DNA of 27,977 nt, from positions 1-27,977 of the IMG/VR virus record IMGVR_UViG_3300020595_000152; one strand, given 5' to 3'. The position numbers and the translations under genes are program-made. Below are positions 17,684 to 26,805 of this stretch, one piece after another. The first letter of the stretch is position 1. Each line of letters opens with the position of its first letter. A model generated the notes under the pieces. The model saw nothing but the letters and a program-made list of their open reading frames with translations, ran no database searches and was not told where the DNA came from. The DNA comes from a virus.

Positions 17684-20600
17684 ATGACAATAAACATAGC
17701 TAACAATGACCCAAGAATAAACTACACGGCAACTGCTGGACAAACTGTGTTTACAGTTCCGTTTGAGTTCTTTGATAACACAGACATAAAAGTTTACATC
17801 GAGGGTACACTAAAGACAATTACTACGCATTATACAGTTTCTGGAGGAAATGGCTCTACAGGCACTGTAACTCTAACTGCTGGTGCTACGTTAAATGACG
17901 AGGTAACGCTTGTTAGGGACGTTCCTATGGAGCGTACAACCGATTTAACGTCTAGTTATAATGGTTCGTCTATAGATGCGCAGCTAGATCGCATTGTTGC
18001 CCAGATTGCTGACCTTGATGACAAGGCTTCACGCACGATACAAATTAATGACTATGAGTTGGCAAGTGGTTTACTCCTCCCTGCACTTGACAGCCGCAAA
18101 GGTAAGACTATCCAATTTAACACCAGCACTGGTGCTTTAGAGGTTGGCCCTACTGGCGCGGATTTAACAGCAATCGGATCAGTTACTTCCGAGATTGCTA
18201 CACTAGCTGGTATCAGCAGTAATATTACTACTGTTGCTGGCTCTAACGCACAGGTTGTTGCAGTTGGTAATGCTATGACTAGCATAACTGCAATCAATTC
18301 TGCGCTTACAAACATAAATACAGTAGCTGGTTCTATATCTAACATTAATACAGTTGGTGGATCTATATCTGATGTCAATGATGTAGCTGATTCTCTTGGT
18401 GAAATCTCTGCGGTACAAGCAAAACTAACAAATATAGATACAGTAGCTATTGCTTCTACAAATATAGGTACAGTTGCTGGATCTATATCACAAGTTAATA
18501 GCGTAGCTTCTAAGATTGCTGACGTTACTGGTGTTAATAGTAATATATCAGCAATAACTACAGCCAATGCTAATTCTACTAACATTAACTTAGTTGCTAA
18601 TAATGTAGATGATGTTAATGATGTTGGTAATGTAATTACTAAAGTAACTACTGTTGCTGACAACATTACAAATGTAAATTTAGTAGCACCTAACGCACAA
18701 TATTTATCAGATGTAGCTAACAATATTACAGCTATAAATGCTGTTGCACCTCTTGCAAGTGATTTAACTAATGTTACTGATAATTTAACTGCTATACAAA
18801 ATGCTGGAACAAATGCAACAAATGCTGCAAACTCTGCAACAAGCGCAGCAACAGATGCAACAGCAGCGCAAACAGCTAAGACTGCTGCTGAAACTGCATT
18901 AGATGAATTTACTGATATTTATTTAGGTAGCAAATCTGTTGCACCAACTGTTGATAATGATGGCAATGCGTTAGCAACAGGTAGTATTTATTGGAATACA
19001 GGAGTAGATCAGCTTTATATTTGGACAGGTTCTGCATGGGATGATGCTGCGTTTACTGCATCTGGTGCTGTTACATCGTTTAACACTAGAACTGGTGCTG
19101 TTACATTAAGCTCTGCTGACGTTACTAATGCATCTGGATTGCTTACAACTGGCGGTACAATGACAGGCAACTTGTCATTCGGTGACAACGATAAAGCCAT
19201 CTTCGGTGCTGGGTCTGACTTACAGATTTACCATGATGGGACAAATAGTTACATTAAAGATGCTGGTACTGGTGATTTATTAATACAAGCAACTGACCAA
19301 ATTAAGTTTAAGAAAGCTGACGGAAGTGAGTATCATGCTATATTTGCTGATGGTGGTTCAGTAGACCTTTATTATGCTGGTGTTGAGAAATTTAAAACAA
19401 GCGCCACAGGAATTGACGTTACTGGCACAGTGACTGCTGATGCAGGTTCTTGGTCAGCAGTTATCTCTGGTAATGCTATAACGTTTGACCGAAATGGTGA
19501 AAATAATATTATTGCTGATAGCGGCTCTTCTGCTAATTTAAATCTTACTGCTGGAAATAGAATATTCTATAGTGCGGATGATTATCAGTCTTTTAAAATA
19601 GGTAGCTCTCCAACAGAAAAACTTAGAATACGTTCAACAGGCATTGACGTTACTGGCACAGCCGTAACAGACGGCCTTACAGTTGCAGGTAATGTTTCAG
19701 TAGACGGCGGCACAATCAAGCTAGACGGAAACTATCCTGTTGGTACAGGCAACGTGGCGTTGGGTAATGCTGCGTTAGACAGTGGTTCTTTAAGTGGTGG
19801 TTATAACACAGCAATAGGGCAAGAAGCCTTAAGTTCAAACACTTCTGGTAGTGTAAATACAGCTATTGGTAATGGGGCTTTGTACCTAAACACAACAGGC
19901 GCAAACAATATTTCTGTAGGATCAAACTCTTTAGCTGATAACACTACTGGTGGTAGTAATGTGGCTGTTGGTAGAGATGCTTTAGGTAACAACACCACCG
20001 CATCCGACAACACTGCAGTTGGGTATCAAGCTGGGTATGCTAATACCACTGGTAGTGAAAATGTAGCTTTGGGTAGGTCTGCACTAGCTGCCAATACAAC
20101 CGCCTCTCATGGAACTGCCGTTGGTCGTGAGGCACTCAACTCTAACACTACGGGAGCAGAAAATTCTGCTTTTGGTTCGGGTGCTTTAGTCAATAACACT
20201 ACAGGCTCTAATAATGTGGGCTTGGGTCGTTATGCACTAGCTCTCAACACCACTGGATCAGAAAGCACTGCTGTTGGGTATCAAGCAGGGTATAATAATA
20301 CTTCTGGTCGAATAACTGCAATGGGTAGACATGCTGTTAGAAACAATACAACCGCTGTTGAGGTAACAGGTATTGGCTATCGTGCATTACGAGATAATAC
20401 TACAGGGCAATTTAATACATCTGTTGGTGGGGATGCACTTATGCAAAACACCACCGCAAGTAACAACACTGCCGTTGGGTATCAGGCTATGCTTGCGAAT
20501 ACTACTGGAACTGAAAGTGTAGGCATTGGTAGTAGGGCTTTGGCTTCACAAACCACAGGTAGAAACACGGCTGTAGGTTTTTCTGCTGGTCAAGATATTA

Positions 20601-21742
20601 CTACAGGCAGTAGCAACACAATGCTAGGACAAGAGGCTGGTGAAAACACTACTACAGGTGCTTCAAATGTAGCAGTCGGAACTCAAGCCCTTCGTGCAAA
20701 CTCCACCGCATCCTACAACACAGCAGTTGGTTATCAGGCTCTTTACAGCAATACTACTGGAATAAATAATGCGGCTTTTGGTGGAGAGACTTTAGTTACA
20801 AACACAACTGGCTCTTACAATACAGCCTATGGAAGCATTGCTTTAAGGTATAATACTACTGGTAGTTATAATACTGCCGTTGGTCGTGAGGCTCTTAATG
20901 CAAACACCACCGCATCCGACAACACAGCGGTTGGGTATAAGGCTGGGACTAAGGTGACTACTGCGACAGGCGGTGTTTATCTTGGTAGGTCTTCTGGACA
21001 GGAAAATTTAACAGGAAATAATAACACATTTGTTGGATATGGAGCAGGTGACAAAACAGTATCGGCTAGTAATACTTTTCTTGGATACGCATCTGGGTGG
21101 AAAGTAACATCTGGTGCAAAAAACACCTTTGTAGGTGCTTACAACGGCAACCAAGAAAGCCTAGACCTCCGCACCTCAAGCAACAACATCGTGCTGTCTG
21201 ATGGGGACGGTAATCCTAGGATGCGATTCAACTCAGAAGGTAGAGCGGTAATAGGCACTACTGACCCTGCAAGACATGGGCAAACGACTAAAGTATTGCT
21301 TTATAATGGCTCTACAACGTCAACTGATTTTGCTTTGCATGTAGGTAGAGTTGGTACAGGTTCAGAAAATCAGATATGTATTACTAATGGGTTCGGAAAA
21401 GTAGGGAGTGTTACAACAAGTGGAACATCTACAGCGTTTAACACCTCATCAGATCACCGCCTAAAAGAAAACGTGGATTACACATGGGATGCTACAACTA
21501 GACTAAAGCTACTCAAGCCAGCAAGGTTTAACTTTATTGTTGATCCAGACACTACAGTCGATGGTTTCTTGGCTCACGAAGCACAAGCAGTTGTACCAGA
21601 AGCAGTACATGGAACACATAACGAAGTCGATGATGATGGTAACGCAGTAATGCAAGGCATAGATCAGTCTAAACTTGTACCACTATTAGTAAAAACAATC
21701 CAAGAGCTAGAGGCTCGTATTACAGCTTTAGAAGGAGCATAA
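17684..21742 (+). CDS. Tail fibre with T7-type anchor, YadA-like repeats and S74 chaperone
   Basis: This is a 1352-residue adhesin. Residues 1-145 match the T7 gp17 N-terminal tail-attachment domain (NYTATAGQTVFTVPFEFFD; LVRDVPMERTTDLTSSY). Residues about 160-375 are degenerate I-N-TVA-SI repeats, then an Ala/Thr-rich coiled coil. Residues about 480-690 contain collar-like modules with STGIDVTGT. Residues 690-1154 are about 28 repeats of NTAVG-x-AL-x-NTTG-x. The C-terminus has SSDHRLKENV (S1256, D1257, R1259, K1261, E1262), the peptidase S74 autocleaving intramolecular chaperone, ending in a coiled coil LLVKTIQELEARITALE. The chaperone assembles the trimer and is then released by self-cleavage before S1256 by analogy with endosialidase K1F. 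It probably decides host binding. Confidence 0.95.
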   Translation: MTINIANNDPRINYTATAGQTVFTVPFEFFDNTDIKVYIEGTLKTITTHYTVSGGNGSTGTVTLTAGATLNDEVTLVRDVPMERTTDLTSSYNGSSIDAQLDRIVAQIADLDDKASRTIQINDYELASGLLLPALDSRKGKTIQFNTSTGALEVGPTGADLTAIGSVTSEIATLAGISSNITTVAGSNAQVVAVGNAMTSITAINSALTNINTVAGSISNINTVGGSISDVNDVADSLGEISAVQAKLTNIDTVAIASTNIGTVAGSISQVNSVASKIADVTGVNSNISAITTANANSTNINLVANNVDDVNDVGNVITKVTTVADNITNVNLVAPNAQYLSDVANNITAINAVAPLASDLTNVTDNLTAIQNAGTNATNAANSATSAATDATAAQTAKTAAETALDEFTDIYLGSKSVAPTVDNDGNALATGSIYWNTGVDQLYIWTGSAWDDAAFTASGAVTSFNTRTGAVTLSSADVTNASGLLTTGGTMTGNLSFGDNDKAIFGAGSDLQIYHDGTNSYIKDAGTGDLLIQATDQIKFKKADGSEYHAIFADGGSVDLYYAGVEKFKTSATGIDVTGTVTADAGSWSAVISGNAITFDRNGENNIIADSGSSANLNLTAGNRIFYSADDYQSFKIGSSPTEKLRIRSTGIDVTGTAVTDGLTVAGNVSVDGGTIKLDGNYPVGTGNVALGNAALDSGSLSGGYNTAIGQEALSSNTSGSVNTAIGNGALYLNTTGANNISVGSNSLADNTTGGSNVAVGRDALGNNTTASDNTAVGYQAGYANTTGSENVALGRSALAANTTASHGTAVGREALNSNTTGAENSAFGSGALVNNTTGSNNVGLGRYALALNTTGSESTAVGYQAGYNNTSGRITAMGRHAVRNNTTAVEVTGIGYRALRDNTTGQFNTSVGGDALMQNTTASNNTAVGYQAMLANTTGTESVGIGSRALASQTTGRNTAVGFSAGQDITTGSSNTMLGQEAGENTTTGASNVAVGTQALRANSTASYNTAVGYQALYSNTTGINNAAFGGETLVTNTTGSYNTAYGSIALRYNTTGSYNTAVGREALNANTTASDNTAVGYKAGTKVTTATGGVYLGRSSGQENLTGNNNTFVGYGAGDKTVSASNTFLGYASGWKVTSGAKNTFVGAYNGNQESLDLRTSSNNIVLSDGDGNPRMRFNSEGRAVIGTTDPARHGQTTKVLLYNGSTTSTDFALHVGRVGTGSENQICITNGFGKVGSVTTSGTSTAFNTSSDHRLKENVDYTWDATTRLKLLKPARFNFIVDPDTTVDGFLAHEAQAVVPEAVHGTHNEVDDDGNAVMQGIDQSKLVPLLVKTIQELEARITALEGA
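18163..18810 (+). repeat. Degenerate hydrophobic repeats in the fibre shaft
   Basis: Codes for a run of about 18-23-residue units with the core TNINTVAGSIS-V or close variants; at DNA level ACAGTAGCTGGTTCTATATC and ACAGTTGGTGGATCTATATC recur. This is a trimeric shaft-like repeat seen in several phage fibres. The mirror strand also has a long ORF over it (18052-18723), a by-product of the repeat composition. Confidence 0.75.
19751..21147 (+). repeat. About 28 tandem YadA-head-like repeats in the fibre
   Basis: Units of 16-17 codons (48-51 nt) with consensus NTAVG-x-x-AL-x-NTTG-S. Several units are nearly identical in DNA as well: ACACCACCGCATCCGACAAC recurs near 19993 and 20904, and ACTGCCGTTGGTCGTGAGGC near 20117 and 20875. 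The spacing and G-x-x-AL pattern fit the left-handed beta-roll of trimeric autotransporter heads. Confidence 0.9.
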
Positions 21743-21745
21743 CCC

Positions 21746-21991
21746 ATGGATGACTTAACAGCAGAACAAATCGCACAGAACTACTCAGCAATGGGTGACT
21801 CAGTTGCACTTATCAATGACGTGATAGCAGGTAATGCTATGGCAGATGATGATGCAGAAGATCGACAAGACTGTGTGGATCGTAACGTAGCACACCTAGA
21901 ACTAATGGTTGCTAAAGATTACTGGACATCAGAAGATATGACTGCGGTAAACGCCGCTATCACAGCAGGGAACGGATACACCGCTTCCTAA
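21746..21991 (+). CDS. Small acidic phage protein after the fibre gene (81 aa)
   Basis: Starts MDDLTAEQIAQNYSAMGDSV, and contains ADDDAEDRQDCVDRNVAHLE then AKDYWTSEDMTAVNAAITAG. It is acidic and helical with one Cys and no membrane segment. The DRQDCVDRNVAHLE--VAKDYWT block looks conserved among marine phages as I recall it, and the gene follows the tail fibre, so a fibre-assembly role is possible but unsupported. AAGGAGC lies about 9 nt before the ATG. Confidence 0.75.
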   Translation: MDDLTAEQIAQNYSAMGDSVALINDVIAGNAMADDDAEDRQDCVDRNVAHLELMVAKDYWTSEDMTAVNAAITAGNGYTAS

Positions 21992-22016
21992 ATTAACTTA
22001 ACCAAAGGAGACTACG

Positions 22017-22232
22017 ATGAGTAAAAAAGAAAAGAACCTCATTACAGTCAACGACATAGAATATAATGTTGATGACTTTACTGATGAGCAAAAGGTTATG
22101 TTAAATCATATAAATGATTTGGCTAGAAAATTAGACAACGCTACTTTTAATTTAGATCAATTAAATGTAGGTCGAGAAGCTTTTGTAAATCGTTTAATAG
22201 CATCGCTTGAAACTGAGGAATCTAATGAGTAA
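22017..22232 (+). CDS. DUF6447-like protein (71 aa)
   Basis: The short product has LITVNDIEYNVDDFTDEQKV followed by a helix (LNHINDLARKLDNATFNLDQ) and a Glu-rich end. The 'T-ng-eY---dls-e-k-----i---d-ei-rl' layout matches the DUF6447 family of small phage proteins. It is soluble and probably a hairpin plus coiled coil. AAAGGAG (22004-22010) lies 6 nt before the start. Function unknown. The 3' end overlaps the next gene by 8 nt. Confidence 0.8.
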   Translation: MSKKEKNLITVNDIEYNVDDFTDEQKVMLNHINDLARKLDNATFNLDQLNVGREAFVNRLIASLETEESNE

Positions 22233-22419
22233 CAAAAGAACTATATCTTCTGCGCATGACAGGCTTGATACGCTAGAAAAGCAAGTGGTTGCAATTAAAA
22301 CAGAAGTTAAGATACAATTTAAAGATCTATTTGGTCGAGTTAAACGTATGGAAAGCATTATGATTGCAGCAACAGGCGCGATATTAACCTTACTCGTTGC
22401 GGTACTAATGAAAATGTAA
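22225..22419 (+). CDS. Tail-anchored coiled-coil protein, XhlA-like (64 aa)
   Basis: The ATG at 22225 is preceded by GAGGAA and chosen over an in-frame start at 22207 that has no site. Residues 8-42 form a charged heptad-like helix (HDRLDTLEKQVVAIKTEVKI), then SIMIAATGAILTLLVAVLMKM, a single C-terminal membrane helix. This is the plan of haemolysin XhlA-like proteins and of some holin accessory proteins. It is the first membrane protein of the envelope cluster. A role in holin control or in membrane attachment is plausible but unproven. Confidence 0.7.
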   Translation: MSNKRTISSAHDRLDTLEKQVVAIKTEVKIQFKDLFGRVKRMESIMIAATGAILTLLVAVLMKM

Positions 22420-22420
22420 C

Positions 22421-22975
22421 ATGTTACGAACAATATTAATTGGTTTGTTTATCTTAATCGGCAGCAGTCTTGCTGCTGATGACACAATTTACACTGATAC
22501 TAACAGCACAATAACCTCTGATGGTTCGATGGATACTACTATCAATAGTCCACCACCCTCTGCTATTTCCCCACAGATCAGCGCAAGTAACTCTGACTTA
22601 TGTACTGTCGGTGTTGCTGGTGCAGTACAAACACAGATACTTGGTATCTCTGCTGGTCGTACTGTTAGAGATATGAACTGCGAAAAATTAAAGAACGCCA
22701 AAACCATGTACGATATGGGTATGAAAGTTGCAGCTGTATCTGTGATGTGCCAAGACGAAAGAGTGTTTGAAGCCATGCTCAATGCTGGTACGCCCTGTCC
22801 CAAGGATGGGTTGGTAGGCGATAAAGCTAGGCTAGCATGGGAGATGGAAGCAGTTAAGGAAGAGATCGAGCGTGATCAGAACAATGTAATCAAGAGAGTC
22901 TTTGATAAAAATGGTGAAACAAAAATTGGTTTGGGTGTTATCTTTAGCACTCTTGCCTTCTTACTTGCACTCTGA
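22421..22975 (+). CDS. Exported protein 1: signal peptide, four Cys, C-terminal membrane helix (184 aa)
   Basis: The N-terminus MLRTILIGLFILIGSSLA is a clear signal peptide (cleavage expected before ADDTIY). The mature part has a Thr/Ser-rich stretch, a SPPPSAISP linker, SDLCTVGVAGAVQTQILG, VRDMNCEKLK, VMCQDERVF and GTPCPKDG: four cysteines, so two disulfides possible. A charged helix (about 130-160) leads to KIGLGVIFSTLAFLLAL, a terminal membrane segment. This would leave the body in the periplasm, anchored in the inner membrane. The SPPPSAISP---SDLCTVG block recurs in marine phage genomes as I recall it; no function is known to me. Its last 65 nt overlap the next gene. Confidence 0.85.
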   Translation: MLRTILIGLFILIGSSLAADDTIYTDTNSTITSDGSMDTTINSPPPSAISPQISASNSDLCTVGVAGAVQTQILGISAGRTVRDMNCEKLKNAKTMYDMGMKVAAVSVMCQDERVFEAMLNAGTPCPKDGLVGDKARLAWEMEAVKEEIERDQNNVIKRVFDKNGETKIGLGVIFSTLAFLLAL

Positions 22976-23774
22976 TCCCTATAGTTATGGGGCTACAGGA
23001 AACGCAGCATCTAGCTCTCTTAGCTGGGGAATGGCTGGTGTTTTGCCTGACGTTACTGGCATAGATATAAATGGTTTGATCTATAGGTACACCACAGTAA
23101 AGAACACTGAAGATGATATGCTGGTACACGTTGGTAATAAGAACGCGAATGGCAACGGTTATATATTTAGAGAGACAGATGATTGGTCTGGTGTGCCAAG
23201 CAATACAATCGTTAAGTCTTTTAATCTTAGCAACATACCAGCAACAAACTGGGGTACAGGATCTATTGAAGTAGAGGGAAAAGGCAGCGTTAAAGATGCT
23301 GTTGTTATTTACAACTACAGAATAGATAGATGCTTTGACCCACAGTCTGACCCTACTTGTGCTGGATATGTAAAGCCTATGCCTGTGTTACCAGAGGTAG
23401 TGGTTTATGATGCGCTAGAGGATGATGCTGTTGTTGAAACATTAGAAGCTGATGAGTTTCAGTATGATGAAGATGGTAATCTAATTCTTAGTGAAGAAGA
23501 GGAAGAAGAAGAAACTAAAATTGAGATGGGGCTAACTGCATCTGCCAATGCGCTGACCCTATTCAAGACACAAGGACAAGATGATATTATTATGGCTATT
23601 AATCAACAGACTAATATAGCTATGTACTACAATGCATCTATCAATGGTGGCGTTTATGCTGACGCTGCTGGTCTTGCTGATTCAGAAATACTTGATAACA
23701 AGAAAGCCTTGCGTAATAACTTAGCACAACAAATACTGCATGAACAAATGGTTGATATGCAATACAACAAATGA
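22911..23774 (+). CDS. Exported protein 2: signal peptide, acidic linker, two Cys (287 aa)
   Basis: The ATG at 22911 gives MVKQKLVWVLSLALLPSYLHS as signal peptide, then DPYSYG. The first domain (to about 150) contains INGLIYRYTTVKN and GNGYIFRETDDWSG, beta-rich; a Cys pair follows in RIDRCFDPQSDPTCAGY. Residues about 175-220 are very acidic (EEEEEEE near 201-207). The C-terminal 60 residues are helical (LAQQILHEQMVDMQY). An in-frame TTG at 22902 is a possible alternative start. The INGLIYRYTTVKN...DDWSG pattern looks like a family common in marine phages. Secreted or periplasmic; role unknown. Confidence 0.85.
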   Translation: MVKQKLVWVLSLALLPSYLHSDPYSYGATGNAASSSLSWGMAGVLPDVTGIDINGLIYRYTTVKNTEDDMLVHVGNKNANGNGYIFRETDDWSGVPSNTIVKSFNLSNIPATNWGTGSIEVEGKGSVKDAVVIYNYRIDRCFDPQSDPTCAGYVKPMPVLPEVVVYDALEDDAVVETLEADEFQYDEDGNLILSEEEEEEETKIEMGLTASANALTLFKTQGQDDIIMAINQQTNIAMYYNASINGGVYADAAGLADSEILDNKKALRNNLAQQILHEQMVDMQYNK

Positions 23775-23776
23775 GG
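23773..23776 (+). promoter_or_regulatory. Ribosome binding site deciding the start at 23783
   Basis: GAGG at 23773-23776 lies 6 nt before the ATG at 23783. The alternative ATG at 23771, overlapping the upstream TGA, would place this site inside the coding region. Confidence 0.5.
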
Positions 23777-23782
23777 TTTAAT

Positions 23783-24271
23783 ATGAAATATTCTTTGGCA
23801 ATACTTTCACTCTGTGCATTACCAGCATACGCTGATGTAGATATAACAGGTAACGTGGAAGCTAAGTGTGTAATACAGACAACTAAGAGTGGTGTGTATG
23901 GCAATCCAATAGCTAGCAAGTTAAGCACTACCCCTGCTGATGGTGGTGTCTTACCTGTTATTAGGTTTGATGTAGCTCTTGCTAATTACTACACAGCAAA
24001 CATAACACATCCAACATCATTCAGTTCTTCACCAGCACTATCTGATACAGTCGCATGGACAGGCAGCACTAGTGTCACGCAAACAAGTGACGCTGGTATG
24101 TCAGGGTATGATGCAGCCAAAGTTGTATACGATAATACTACTGTGTTTGATCTAACTGTTGCAGGATCTACTTGGTTTAGCACAGCATCAAGTGCCACCT
24201 ATGCAGCATCAAAGCCTTTTGTTGGTGGAGTATACACTGCAATAGTACAGGCTAGTTGTGTTGCAAAATAA
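23783..24271 (+). CDS. Exported protein 3: pilin/spore-coat-U-like beta protein (162 aa)
   Basis: MKYSLAILSLCALPAYA is a signal peptide ending in an AxA site, followed by DVDITGNVEAKCVIQ. The mature chain is beta-rich (Thr, Ser, Val, Gly) with exactly two cysteines, at the start (AKCVI) and at the very end (QASCVAK). An early Cys after 'ITGNVEAKC' and a final beta strand YTAIVQASC are reminiscent of pilin subunits of chaperone-usher systems or SCPU-type proteins, but here the disulfide would link the two ends. This is a similarity of pattern, not a proven family. Confidence 0.8.
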   Translation: MKYSLAILSLCALPAYADVDITGNVEAKCVIQTTKSGVYGNPIASKLSTTPADGGVLPVIRFDVALANYYTANITHPTSFSSSPALSDTVAWTGSTSVTQTSDAGMSGYDAAKVVYDNTTVFDLTVAGSTWFSTASSATYAASKPFVGGVYTAIVQASCVAK

Positions 24272-24647
24272 GCTGATAATATTTTTTTTGGTATGGGCAT
24301 TTTCAACCCATGCACATGAGATGACACCAGCTTATCCTATAGTTAAACCATCTCACGTTACTGGTGTGGTCAAGGTTGACTTGTCTTTGTTTAACTCAAG
24401 GGAAGAGATCAAGTATTACGAGATCGGTTTGTTTGATTTGAACTGGGATAGTATTCCCTTCTCTGCAACGTACAGAATAATTAAAGTAGCATACCAGACT
24501 CGAAAGAACTTCAGTGTATACATTCGTAAGTCAGACATGGATGAAGCCACCTATGTATGCACAACATCTAAGGTTAAAAAGCAGCTCGAATCAAAGACAC
24601 TAGTGTCATCTAGGATTTGCTCTCGACTAGATGGAATGCCAGCATGA
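24258..24647 (+). CDS. Exported protein 4: beta-sandwich protein, possibly PapD-like (129 aa)
   Basis: Starts at GTG 24258 or TTG 24261, overlapping the upstream gene's end; no ATG precedes the signal peptide NKLIIFFLVWAFSTHA. Mature: a Pro-rich start (MTPAYPIVKPSHVTG), then VVKVDLSLFNSREEIKYYEIG, DWDSIPFS-like turn, RIIKVAYQTRKNFSVYIRKS, and two Cys (YVCTTS, RICSRL). The alternation of strands with 'slfN-r-e-i-yYei' and 'k-fsVyIrks' resembles the N-terminal Ig-like domain of periplasmic pilus chaperones, but the protein is about half their length. The next gene starts within its stop (ATGA). Confidence 0.75.
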   Translation: MLQNKLIIFFLVWAFSTHAHEMTPAYPIVKPSHVTGVVKVDLSLFNSREEIKYYEIGLFDLNWDSIPFSATYRIIKVAYQTRKNFSVYIRKSDMDEATYVCTTSKVKKQLESKTLVSSRICSRLDGMPA

Positions 24648-25036
24648 GATTAGCTGCGCTCTTATGTATTCTATCTAGCTCTGCCTTTGCTGAGAGTAGC
24701 TCACTTGCTTTGTCACTGCCTAGTCCACCTATGAACTACCAATCAGATAGTTTCTCTGCAAATAATTTACGTTGCAGCAATGCGGTAGGTGGTGGAGTTA
24801 ACCTTGAGTATGGTATTACTGGTGTTCTATCTGGATTAGAAACAAGCAGCAGAGGTAAAGACATAGGTGTGTATGCTCGTATAGTTATACCGCTAGACAA
24901 ACCTAAGTCTCGCATTAACTGTGATGATCTATACCAAGTAGAGCTAGCCCAGCGTAGGCTAGAGATACAAAAGCTGCGTGATGAACTGGAAGCACTAAAG
25001 AATTTATCTAGTGATAGTATGGACTTTGAAAACTGA
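24644..25036 (+). CDS. Exported protein 5: signal peptide, two Cys, C-terminal coiled coil (130 aa)
   Basis: MRLAALLCILSSSAFA is a signal peptide before ESSSLALSLP. The mature domain has NNLRCSNAVGGGVNLEYGIT, KDIGVYARIVIPLDKPKSRI and NCDDLYQVELAQRRLEI, with two cysteines, then a heptad-type helix to the end (LEIQKLRDELEALKNL). The GVYARI-IPL...R-NC--LY-LE---RLE pattern looks like a small family I recall from marine phages. It may oligomerise in the periplasm through the coiled coil. The ATG at 24644 overlaps the preceding TGA. Its own TGA overlaps the following ATG. Confidence 0.82.
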   Translation: MRLAALLCILSSSAFAESSSLALSLPSPPMNYQSDSFSANNLRCSNAVGGGVNLEYGITGVLSGLETSSRGKDIGVYARIVIPLDKPKSRINCDDLYQVELAQRRLEIQKLRDELEALKNLSSDSMDFEN

Positions 25037-25515
25037 TGGTAGATCTTACAGAATTTGATAGCCTTGCTGATAAGAAAGTCAGTGCTGGTGGTTTCAAACT
25101 ATCGGCTGCATCTGTCTTTGCAATCATAACATTTATATCTACTGTAGTTGCTGGCCTGTATGGTGGGTTCGTCATGTACCAGAAGATAGAAGAGGTAGCT
25201 GGCTTAGACCTAGGAGAATACCAACAGCAAATGGATTTGATGGATGCGCAGGTACAACAGACAGTTGAGTACACACGCGACATTAAGAATAATTTACGTG
25301 ATGATCTTCTTAGAGTTGAGCAGCAATCAGATCGTGTCGAGTCTTTGGTGCGAAAGACAGAAGAGAAGGTACGCACTATGATAGATGCAGCAGATCTTAG
25401 ATTCGAATCGCAACGTGAACGCTTGCGATCAAATCAAGATGCTGAGATGAAAGACCTTGAAGATAAGTTGATGGATAAATTACAGAGGGCATTGGATAAT
25501 CCTCTGGCTGATTAG
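25036..25515 (+). CDS. Membrane-anchored coiled-coil protein (159 aa)
   Basis: The first 20 residues are polar (VDLTEFDSLADKKVS), followed by one membrane helix (SAASVFAIITFISTVVAGLYGG, shown as two parts: SAASVFAIITF and ISTVVAGLYGG, residues about 23-44). The remaining 110 residues form a long charged helix with heptads (EQQSDRVESLVRKTEEKVRT). With an N-in topology the coiled coil would lie in the periplasm, the plan of an inner-membrane spanin, but it lacks a recognisable partner lipoprotein. It could also be a structural link for the exported proteins upstream. Start coupled by TGATG. Confidence 0.75.
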   Translation: MVDLTEFDSLADKKVSAGGFKLSAASVFAIITFISTVVAGLYGGFVMYQKIEEVAGLDLGEYQQQMDLMDAQVQQTVEYTRDIKNNLRDDLLRVEQQSDRVESLVRKTEEKVRTMIDAADLRFESQRERLRSNQDAEMKDLEDKLMDKLQRALDNPLAD

Positions 25516-25524
25516 GAGAATAAC

Positions 25525-25836
25525 ATGGATGAGTTTAAAAAATTTGATGTCAATGGTGATGGCGCAATAGATAAAGCAGAGTGGGATGCACTTGAGTACG
25601 AGGATCGTAAGCGTAGGCTAGAGGATGAAGACGCTCAACGTGATGCACAACGTAAGATGACATGGTTCGCCCTGTCAGGAATGCTCCTGTACCCCTTAGC
25701 GGTGGTGCTAGCAGATCTCTTGACTTTGATTGAGGCTGCTAAGATACTCGGCAGCATGGCAAGTGTGTATTTTGTCAGTGTTGCTGGCATAGTGGCTGCG
25801 TTCTTTGGAGCGTCAGCGTTTACGAAAGGAAAGTAA
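25525..25836 (+). CDS. EF-hand protein with two membrane helices (103 aa)
   Basis: Residues 8-19 form a canonical EF-hand loop, DVNGDGAIDKAE, with ligands at positions 1, 3, 5, 7 (backbone), 9 (Asp) and 12 (Glu), preceded by a short helix DEFKKF and followed by a charged helix WDALEYEDRKRR. Two hydrophobic helices follow: about 46-70 (TWFALSGMLLYPLAVVLADL) and 74-99 (ILGSMASVYFVSVAGIVAAF), ending in a basic KGK. AGGAG lies just before the start. Its place between coiled-coil protein and holin suggests a calcium-sensing membrane protein tied to lysis or envelope. Alternative: a second holin/antiholin. Confidence 0.85.
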   Translation: MDEFKKFDVNGDGAIDKAEWDALEYEDRKRRLEDEDAQRDAQRKMTWFALSGMLLYPLAVVLADLLTLIEAAKILGSMASVYFVSVAGIVAAFFGASAFTKGK

Positions 25837-25837
25837 T

Positions 25838-26185
25838 ATGCTTGGACTTAGTTTAGTAGGTAAGGTAGCTGATCTAGCTGGTAGTTACATTGATGGTAAG
25901 ACTGCTGTGAAGAAAGCAGAAGCTGAAACTAATATGAAGATTGCAACTGGTGAGATTAGTTGGGAGCAAGCAGCTATCAAAGCAAGTGACAACTCTTGGA
26001 AGGATGAAGCTTGGACTGTGTGTTTCATTGCAATCGTTGGGTGTTCTTTTGTACCACCGCTGCAGCCCTATATGAGGGAGGGCTTTGCTAATCTCGAAGC
26101 CGCACCGCAGTGGTTTCAATGGTCGTTGTATGCCAGTATAGCTGCAAGCTTTGGTATCCGTACCATGAAGGGATTTAAAAAATGA
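25838..26185 (+). CDS. Holin, GTA_holin_3TM-like (115 aa)
   Basis: The ATG at 25838 follows AAGGAAA by a normal spacing; upstream in-frame codons give no better start. The N-terminal helix LVGKVADLAGSYIDGK, an Ala/Glu/Lys helix, ASDNSWKDEAWTVCFIAIVG and the final LYASIAASFGIRTMKGF match the gene-transfer-agent-type 3TM holin family (SWKDE--T...P-W......ASFGIR). Hydrophobic segments lie at about 58-75 and 92-108. It would form the inner-membrane lesion that releases the endolysin coded by the next gene, with which it overlaps (ATGA). Confidence 0.88.
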   Translation: MLGLSLVGKVADLAGSYIDGKTAVKKAEAETNMKIATGEISWEQAAIKASDNSWKDEAWTVCFIAIVGCSFVPPLQPYMREGFANLEAAPQWFQWSLYASIAASFGIRTMKGFKK

Positions 26186-26805
26186 CTGAAGCTATGAAGA
26201 TATTGCAGGATCGTATCGGTGCAACAGCTGATGGTAACTTCGGGCCCAACACAGCAAGAGCGATCGTTGATTACTTTGGATTGAATCGTAAGCGTGGCGC
26301 ACACCTGCTTGGTCAAGCAGCACATGAGTCAGGTATGTTTCGTTTAACCAGAGAGAATCTTAATTATTCTGCTGAGTCTATGATGCGTGTGTGGCCTAAA
26401 AGATTTCCAACTATGGAATCGGCTGCACCTTATGCGCGTAACCCAGAGGCATTAGCTAACAAGGTGTACTCTAATCGCATGGGCAATGGAGATAATGAAG
26501 GAGCGTTGTGGGTCGGGCGCGGCTTCATCCAGTTGACAGGCAAGGCAAACTATAGATCTTTTGCTAGTGATATGGGGCTGCCTGATGTAATGACTGACCC
26601 TGATCTTGTTGCAACTGAGTATGCATTTGAATCTGCCATGTGGTTCTTTGAATCCAATGGCTTGTTTGAAATGGCTGATGATGGTGTAAATGATTCAGTT
26701 ATTACTAGCATAAGTAAGCGTGTGAATGGTGGAACACATGGGCTTGATGATCGTATGGAGCAGACAAAGAAAATACATTCTTGGATTGCACACGTTGGCG
26801 TTTAA
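26182..26805 (+). CDS. Endolysin, glycoside hydrolase family 19 type (207 aa)
   Basis: Residues 8-34 (LQDRIGATADGNFGPNTARA) form a peptidoglycan-binding-like N-terminus. The GH19 core begins with LLGQAAHESGMFRLTRENLN: E49 of HESG is the expected acid catalyst and E58 the second glutamate. NYSAESMM, ALWVGRGFIQLTGKANYRSF and a late VITSISKRVNGGTHGLDDR complete the family signature. It has no signal peptide, so it depends on the holin. It cleaves the glycan strands of peptidoglycan at lysis. It is the last + strand gene of the late module. Confidence 0.95.
   Translation: MTEAMKILQDRIGATADGNFGPNTARAIVDYFGLNRKRGAHLLGQAAHESGMFRLTRENLNYSAESMMRVWPKRFPTMESAAPYARNPEALANKVYSNRMGNGDNEGALWVGRGFIQLTGKANYRSFASDMGLPDVMTDPDLVATEYAFESAMWFFESNGLFEMADDGVNDSVITSISKRVNGGTHGLDDRMEQTKKIHSWIAHVGV

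Follow-up and report, generated by a model that had tools for sequence, protein, structure and literature searches.

Overlapping genes for two exported proteins of a marine podovirus and its relatives: a predicted membrane anchor and a signal peptide read from the same DNA

Introduction

Overlap of two genes for exported proteins raises the question of whether one and the same stretch of DNA can be maintained by selection as two targeting signals read in different frames, or whether the hydrophobic character of one reading simply follows from that of the other. The locus considered here belongs to a virus contig from IMG/VR (27,977 bases), analysed over its whole length and referred to below as the window, which carries a podovirus set of head and tail genes (terminase, head-tail adaptor, major capsid, tail proteins, and internal virion protein). 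A run of genes for exported proteins follows the tail fibre-like gene (17684-21742) and precedes the endolysin gene (26182-26805), and the first two genes of this run, p1 and p2, are the subject of the present work. Five signal-peptide genes follow one another within 22421-25036 with successive overlaps of 65, 4, 14, and 4 nt, and for genes 3-5 of the row the PHROG matches are weak or unnamed only. The adjoining product (25036-25515) combines a membrane helix with a coiled coil, shows a weak Rz-like match (PHROG 214, E 0.005), and has the C-terminus NPLAD; similar NPL ends are found in small proteins encoded directly 3′ of p2 in Pelagibacter phages. Scanning of the segment from approximately 21500 to 26000 for promoters and terminators gave signals at background level. 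Assignment of a host by matches to metagenome-assembled genomes was rejected, the matches being spread across many taxa and resembling binned phage contigs. Here, we addressed if the shared hydrophobicity of the p1 and p2 readings exceeds chance expectation, if the overlap is conserved among homologues, and if both frames bear traces of selection.

Results

Architecture of the Overlap and Properties of the Encoded Proteins

The gene p1 (ORF1; 22421-22975, plus strand, as are the p1 and p2 features of the window described below) encodes an exported protein of 184 aa, homologous to PHROG 20531, with an N-terminal signal peptide MLRTILIGLFILIGSSLA (22421-22474; predicted by eye and lacking a lipobox), four conserved cysteines, and a hydrophobic C-terminal tail KIGLGVIFSTLAFLLAL (22922-22972), which forms helix 167-183 of the AlphaFold2 model at a local pLDDT of about 80. 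The gene p2 (ORF2; 22911-23774), whose frame is opened by the ATG at 22911-22913, encodes an exported protein of 287 aa, and its predicted signal peptide MVKQKLVWVLSLALLPSYLHS (22911-22973) overlies the p1 tail in the +1 frame. The end of p1 and the start of p2 share a dual-coding overlap of 65 nt (22911-22975), in which position 2 of the p1 codons corresponds to position 1 of the p2 codons, and the p2 reading frame is open for 83-86 nt 5′ of the p1 stop. This stop (TGA, 22973-22975) supplies in the p2 frame the last base of Ser21 and the first two bases of Asp22 (TCT|GAT) and hence spans the predicted junction Ser21|Asp22, so that in the window the p1 terminus coincides with the predicted S|D cleavage site of p2. 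A sequence-only reading of the window had proposed the 65-nt overlap and the origin of tail and signal peptide from the same DNA in different frames; open reading frames, frames, and coordinates were all confirmed.

Profile comparison related residues 38-135 of p1 to PHROG 20531, a family of unknown function (E 8.5e-14), and the AlphaFold2 model of p1 is of low confidence (pLDDT 64.7). Its tail is short, with a median uncharged run of 16 residues across homologues. For p2, the model consists of a beta-sandwich (24-139, pLDDT mostly >90), an acidic segment, a long helix (195-233), and a C-terminal helix. The sandwich appears jelly-roll-like, with the best Z of 8.4 to viral coat proteins and with BcsB (cellulose-synthase) and sugar-binding folds close behind; such matches suggest the common jelly-roll type and are not diagnostic. 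Pfam and NCBIfam searches with p1 and p2, and Pfam searches with every member of the alignments, yielded nothing convincing; neither p2 in a collection of phage records nor the p1 profile among solved structures found a match. The lipobox is absent from p1 and p2 of the window, and its pattern occurs in 4/177 p1 and 1/177 p2 homologues. A functional hydrophobic anchor at the C-terminus of p1 appears probable from hydropathy and the predicted helix, and we infer that both products are envelope proteins acting in the infected cell, with p1 attached to the membrane via its C-terminus.

Position of the p2 Start

In most relatives p2 begins at an ATG located 6 nt 5′ of the ATG of the window, which extends the overlap to 71 nt, and this codon follows an AGAGG-type Shine-Dalgarno site at a distance of about 6-7 nt. 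The corresponding triplet of the window (22905-22907) is ATA, and the ATG at 22911 lies 12 nt from the Shine-Dalgarno-like motif AAGAGAG inside p1 (22892-22898), which is a weaker one. The ATA at 22905 and the weaker Shine-Dalgarno site are seen in the window's clade, where initiation of p2 has seemingly been shifted 6 nt downstream. Since the upstream ATG is replaced by ATA in this clade, ATG 22911 is the likely start in the window, with ATA 22905 or an in-frame TTG further upstream (22902-22904, giving a 74-nt overlap) as alternatives. Initiation at 22911, as supposed earlier, is therefore likely for the window itself, but not for most relatives, which initiate 6 nt further upstream. Among 171 relatives with an in-frame tail, p2 has an ATG start in 163, and a Shine-Dalgarno-like motif precedes it in 133 as compared to 20% at random places of p1. 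A start downstream of 22975, named by the sequence-only reading as an observation that would speak against it, would delete a conserved and constrained signal peptide.

Shared Hydrophobicity in a Single Genome

When the p2 protein was kept fixed and its codons were shuffled synonymously according to phage codon usage, the p1 frame remained open in 31% of shuffles, and in 8% of these open ones the p1 tail was as hydrophobic as the real one (shuffle mean 1.6 versus 2.4 in the window); for 24 relatives, shuffling usually gave a mean hydropathy just somewhat under the observed one. In the reverse shuffle, with the p1 tail fixed, the p2 frame was open in 1.6% of cases. Judged from a single genome, the overlap is only moderately unusual. 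Frameshifted sequences in general keep their hydropathy, which is a property of the genetic code (PMC7084103). Thus, of the earlier assertion that both readings must be hydrophobic, the hydrophobicity itself stands, but the shuffles show it to be largely automatic in this frame relation. With the chance argument being moderate and hydropathy being preserved by the code, the case rests on the comparison of homologues.

Conservation of the Overlap Among Relatives

An IMG/VR scan based on p2 collected 80 relatives of 75-97% identity, and the overlap is kept in 80/80 of them, the p1 stop falling at the identical p2 codon as in the window. The search based on p1 reached a far wider family of marine phages, including the cultured Pelagibacter phages HTVC033P, HTVC202P, HTVC115P, HTVC023P, Baldr, and Mosig as well as the roseophages CRP-207 and CRP-810. 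Of the 242 distinct p1 homologues at the loci collected, 177 encode the hydrophobic tail in frame and 43 encode it in the -1 frame; the other 22 have it in neither of these frames. Where the tail is in frame, p2 occupies the +1 frame relative to it in 171/173 cases (two are unassigned), the median length of the overlap being 71 nt. A tree built on the p1 core places the in-frame tail together with the overlap in one clade (support 97), within which apparent tail losses mostly correspond to the group with -1-frame tails; an independent-pairs test of overlap against tail comprised only two pairs and was scored before the -1-frame tails had been recognised.

The p1 protein of HTVC115P (gp54) is 38% identical to that of the window, with homology found by tblastn, and both phages have the hydrophobic tail and the overlap, gp54 ending in NIIPMVITALAFGVAF and gp53 beginning with the signal peptide MIKSKSLSIILSLWLLLLLLLVSPSKA. 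In this genome (L086:4371-4447) ATG 4371 yields the full gp53 signal peptide and overlaps gp54 by 77 nt. The GenBank start of gp53 (GTG 4434) falls within the signal peptide, that is, too far downstream, and the export signal is thereby hidden. HTVC033P gp46 is likewise homologous to the p1 core of the window by tblastn, but its end is charged and p2 is nearly separate. Homologues with separate genes and without the helix, which the sequence-only reading had set out as evidence against itself, do therefore exist: in HTVC033P and S28C10 the tail is absent and the p1 and p2 genes are nearly separate. Since tail and overlap are missing there together, the coupling of the two is not refuted. The roseophages have overlaps of 77-161 nt yet a polar p1 end, and the case of CRP-207 implies that overlap alone is not what makes the anchor.

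Two further arrangements deserve mention. HTVC202P (L082:5366-5479) and HTVC023P (L087:4423-4524) contain unannotated small hydrophobic ORFs (MIWLILFIGVMGYAVYRINTFADDINPYNF... and MIWLTIMIIGAAYAIYRINKFADDINPYNF...) whose starts lie on the p1 stop. They run over the p2 signal peptide in the frame relation seen for the tail, and may possibly represent a split version of the p1 tail. In another group (L328, L325, L313, L273, L311, and L312) p1 terminates in a motif resembling YEFPDEYENYD or YEFPDEYNYGD, and no recognisable slippery site would give access to a hydrophobic tail; this is an apparent case of true tail loss.

Selection on Both Frames

Comparison of the variation in the overlap with that in the rest of both genes, proposed along with the initial observation, revealed reduced third-position change in both frames. 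Parsimony changes were counted on a tree of 78 distinct sequences of the window's clade, sites being taken as independent. Third positions of p1 underwent 3.9 changes per site in the overlap versus 9.8 outside (Mann-Whitney P = 1.4e-6), and those of p2 underwent 2.3 versus 9.0 (P = 6.7e-9). The pairwise ratio of synonymous rates in the overlap and in the rest of p2 ranged from 0.22 to 0.70 in the same clade, clear by codon-bootstrap; the p1 ratio by the same procedure was 0.51-1.08 and not significant there, but it reached significance in two additional clades (0.00-0.54 and 0.36-0.83), and one further clade was signal-poor.

Composition of the signal peptides points in the same direction. Among the last 12 codons of the p2 signal peptide, 68% start with T versus 29% in the non-overlapped signal peptide of p1 itself (in the frameshift group described below the p2 value is 65%), and alanine plus glycine make up 7% versus 20%. 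The p2 residue at the boundary set by the p1 stop is serine in 109/177 homologues. As position 1 of p2 is position 2 of p1, the bias to T-starting codons fits the demand for a hydrophobic p1 tail, and the frozen third positions together with these codons argue for translation of both frames and for selection on each. As judged from the sequences compared, the overlap and its conservation, like the dual selection, are almost certainly genuine. The earlier idea of a T-rich stretch encoding two targeting signals at once and binding the two genes to each other agrees with homologue conservation and with the substitutions.

-1-Frame Tails in a Related Subclade

In one subclade the in-frame p1 ORF stops early with a charged end, and a conserved hydrophobic tail (for example, GWINGVGILVGVAGMFFGVPLFF) is encoded in the -1 frame, which stays open across the acidic linker leading up to it. 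Here too, the tail shares its DNA with the p2 signal peptide, p2 being +1 relative to it. The loci concerned include L110, L131, L138, L148, L166, L255, L259, L275, L324, and L327. Within this group p2 is +1 to the tail in 37/40 cases (two are unassigned, and Mosig is non-overlapping), with a median overlap of 75.5 nt. In Mosig EXVC030M (L089, ~1985-2076), A_AAA_AAG lies 39 nt 5′ of the p1 stop and the -1 tail WITIPLMLFFGVAF terminates just 5′ of the p2 start, making it a frameshift candidate without overlap. In the window the p1 tail is in frame, and -1 slippage is not used there.

An in-phase X_XXY_YYZ heptamer is present in the possible shift window of 43/43 sequences versus 1.6 expected from its frequency elsewhere in p1. 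The sites are represented by A runs of at least nine in 32/43 (exactly nine in 31 and ten in one), by A_AAA_AAG or C_CCT_TT[TA] in ten, and by A8 in one. Since A9 forms such a heptamer in any phase, for these cases the argument rests on the rarity of A9, which is encountered elsewhere once in 197 kb and in 0/177 in-frame homologues. The -1 linker 5′ of the p2 overlap displays codon periodicity (differences 0.14, 0.15, and 0.33). No RNA structure was found downstream of the slippery sites (mean z -0.11); a stimulatory structure at this place is not obligatory for a -1 shift and is unexpected if slippage on A9 is transcriptional. Assembly or homopolymer errors might be suspected behind the -1 tails, the sequences being metagenome contigs and the A9 run being error-prone. 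It is hardly compatible with 31 distinct sequences from many samples having exactly nine A’s and always the -1 relation, with ten sequences having non-homopolymer sites, or with the codon periodicity of the linker, and this explanation is quite improbable. Programmed -1 slippage, either transcriptional or ribosomal, is very probably the source of soluble and anchored p1 in this subclade, as far as can be judged from the conserved sites.

Discussion

We consider p1 and p2, with a probability of roughly 0.88 for the account as a whole, to be an overlapping-gene pair for Sec-exported envelope proteins with DNA shared between anchor and signal peptide, supplemented by slippage in a subclade. In this marine podovirus, ribosomes translating p1 would pass the p2 ribosome-binding site and start codon and terminate about 22 codons into this gene, the same 65 nt giving rise to a hydrophobic C-terminal anchor of p1 and to a cleavable signal peptide of p2. 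T at position 2 of the p1 codons would make the tail hydrophobic and confine p2 to codons beginning with T (Leu, Ser, Tyr, Cys, Trp, and Phe), which would still suffice for a functional signal peptide cleaved at Ser-X-Ser and would hold the frame relation, with purifying selection acting on both readings. In the subclade, -1 slippage on A9, A_AAA_AAG, or C_CCT_TT[TA] would reach the tail and provide p1 in both soluble and anchored forms. Membrane insertion, signal cleavage, and frameshifting in vivo are what we infer from the sequences. Translational coupling and a joint function of p1 and p2 at the cell envelope are somewhat favoured. The chances are slightly better than even that the pair constitutes a widespread envelope module of marine phages with the anchor permanently out of frame on the next signal peptide, where p1 would be anchored always or, by slippage, in a set fraction, slippage also deciding the passage of p1 ribosomes over the p2 start.

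One competing view takes the p1 tail for a passenger, p1 running into p2 until a chance stop and the hydrophobicity being a neutral by-product. That p2-only synonymous shuffles already give a hydrophobic tail on average, and that frameshifted hydrophobicity is generally preserved (PMC7084103), would be in line with it. Its probability is nevertheless low, because third positions of p2, free if the p1 frame were irrelevant, show fourfold fewer changes within the overlap, because p2 signal peptides avoid Ala and Gly in favour of T-starting codons, and because a whole subclade retains slippery sites to reach the -1-frame tail. Still less credible is a p1-p2 fusion made by frameshift, with p2 devoid of its own initiation: the p2 frame is indeed open for 83-86 nt upstream of the p1 stop, but the p2 ATG (163/171) and the Shine-Dalgarno-like site (133/171 versus 20% background) are conserved, the signal peptide would end up internal, and no conserved slippery site was noted for the +1 frame in which p2 lies.

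The vicinity of the endolysin gene invites comparison with overlapped two-component spanins, such as P2 LysB/LysC and the embedded lambda Rz/Rz1, for which the +1 frame is frequent and starts are often misannotated (PMC6139136). As in these outer-membrane lysis proteins, an upstream envelope-protein gene contains, in a different frame, the export signal of the downstream protein, and the layout of p1 (N-terminal signal and C-terminal membrane domain) resembles a unimolecular spanin. Against p1 and p2 being an overlapped spanin pair stand the absence of a lipobox from both proteins (its pattern occurring in 4/177 p1 and 1/177 p2 homologues) and a separate Rz-like candidate at 25036-25515 (PHROG 214, E 0.005). 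A two-component overlapped spanin needs a lipobox lipoprotein partner, and p2 lacks one; p1 of the window has the C-terminal hydrophobic tail of a unimolecular spanin and no lipoprotein signal. Without lipoboxes, p1 and p2 fall outside the definition of spanins given in PMC6139136, and their assignment to this class is unlikely. They differ from spanins also in that the part of p1 lying in the overlap is itself a hydrophobic tail, whose end coincides with the cleavage site or lies close to it, and in that some relatives have slippery sites.

For the reading of p1 and p2 as a pair sharing anchor and signal peptide, partial parallels are available. The signal peptide of arterivirus GP2 overlaps the E protein reading frame (PMC13278558) and similarly shares nucleotides with the frame of another small envelope protein; however, this is an unrelated positive-strand RNA virus with another mode of expression and with no C-terminal anchor of an exported bacterial-envelope protein. 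Lambda gpG/gpGT tail-assembly chaperones exemplify conserved -1 slippage near the gene end (PMC5009743), which, as supposed for the p1 relatives and not for the window, equips a fraction of the product with an additional C-terminal domain. Unlike gpG/gpGT, p1 is exported, the added domain is a hydrophobic tail over the signal peptide of another gene, and the site is often A9. No prior description of the p1/p2 overlap was found in the literature searched, a weak indication given its thin coverage of subscription journals.

The p1/p2 pair provides an unusually clear natural example, with deep sampling, of DNA shared by two targeting signals; the codon logic is visible in it, the overlap dictating the amino acids permitted in the signal peptide. 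It has a practical side, as gene annotation misplaces the start of p2 and hides its export signal even in a SAR11 phage that is in culture. The evolutionary series, from genes separate or nearly so, through overlap without hydrophobic tail, to in-frame and -1-frame tails, may be used for studying the origin of overlaps and frameshifts, and the subclade with slippery sites represents a candidate conserved family of phage frameshifts outside tail assembly genes.
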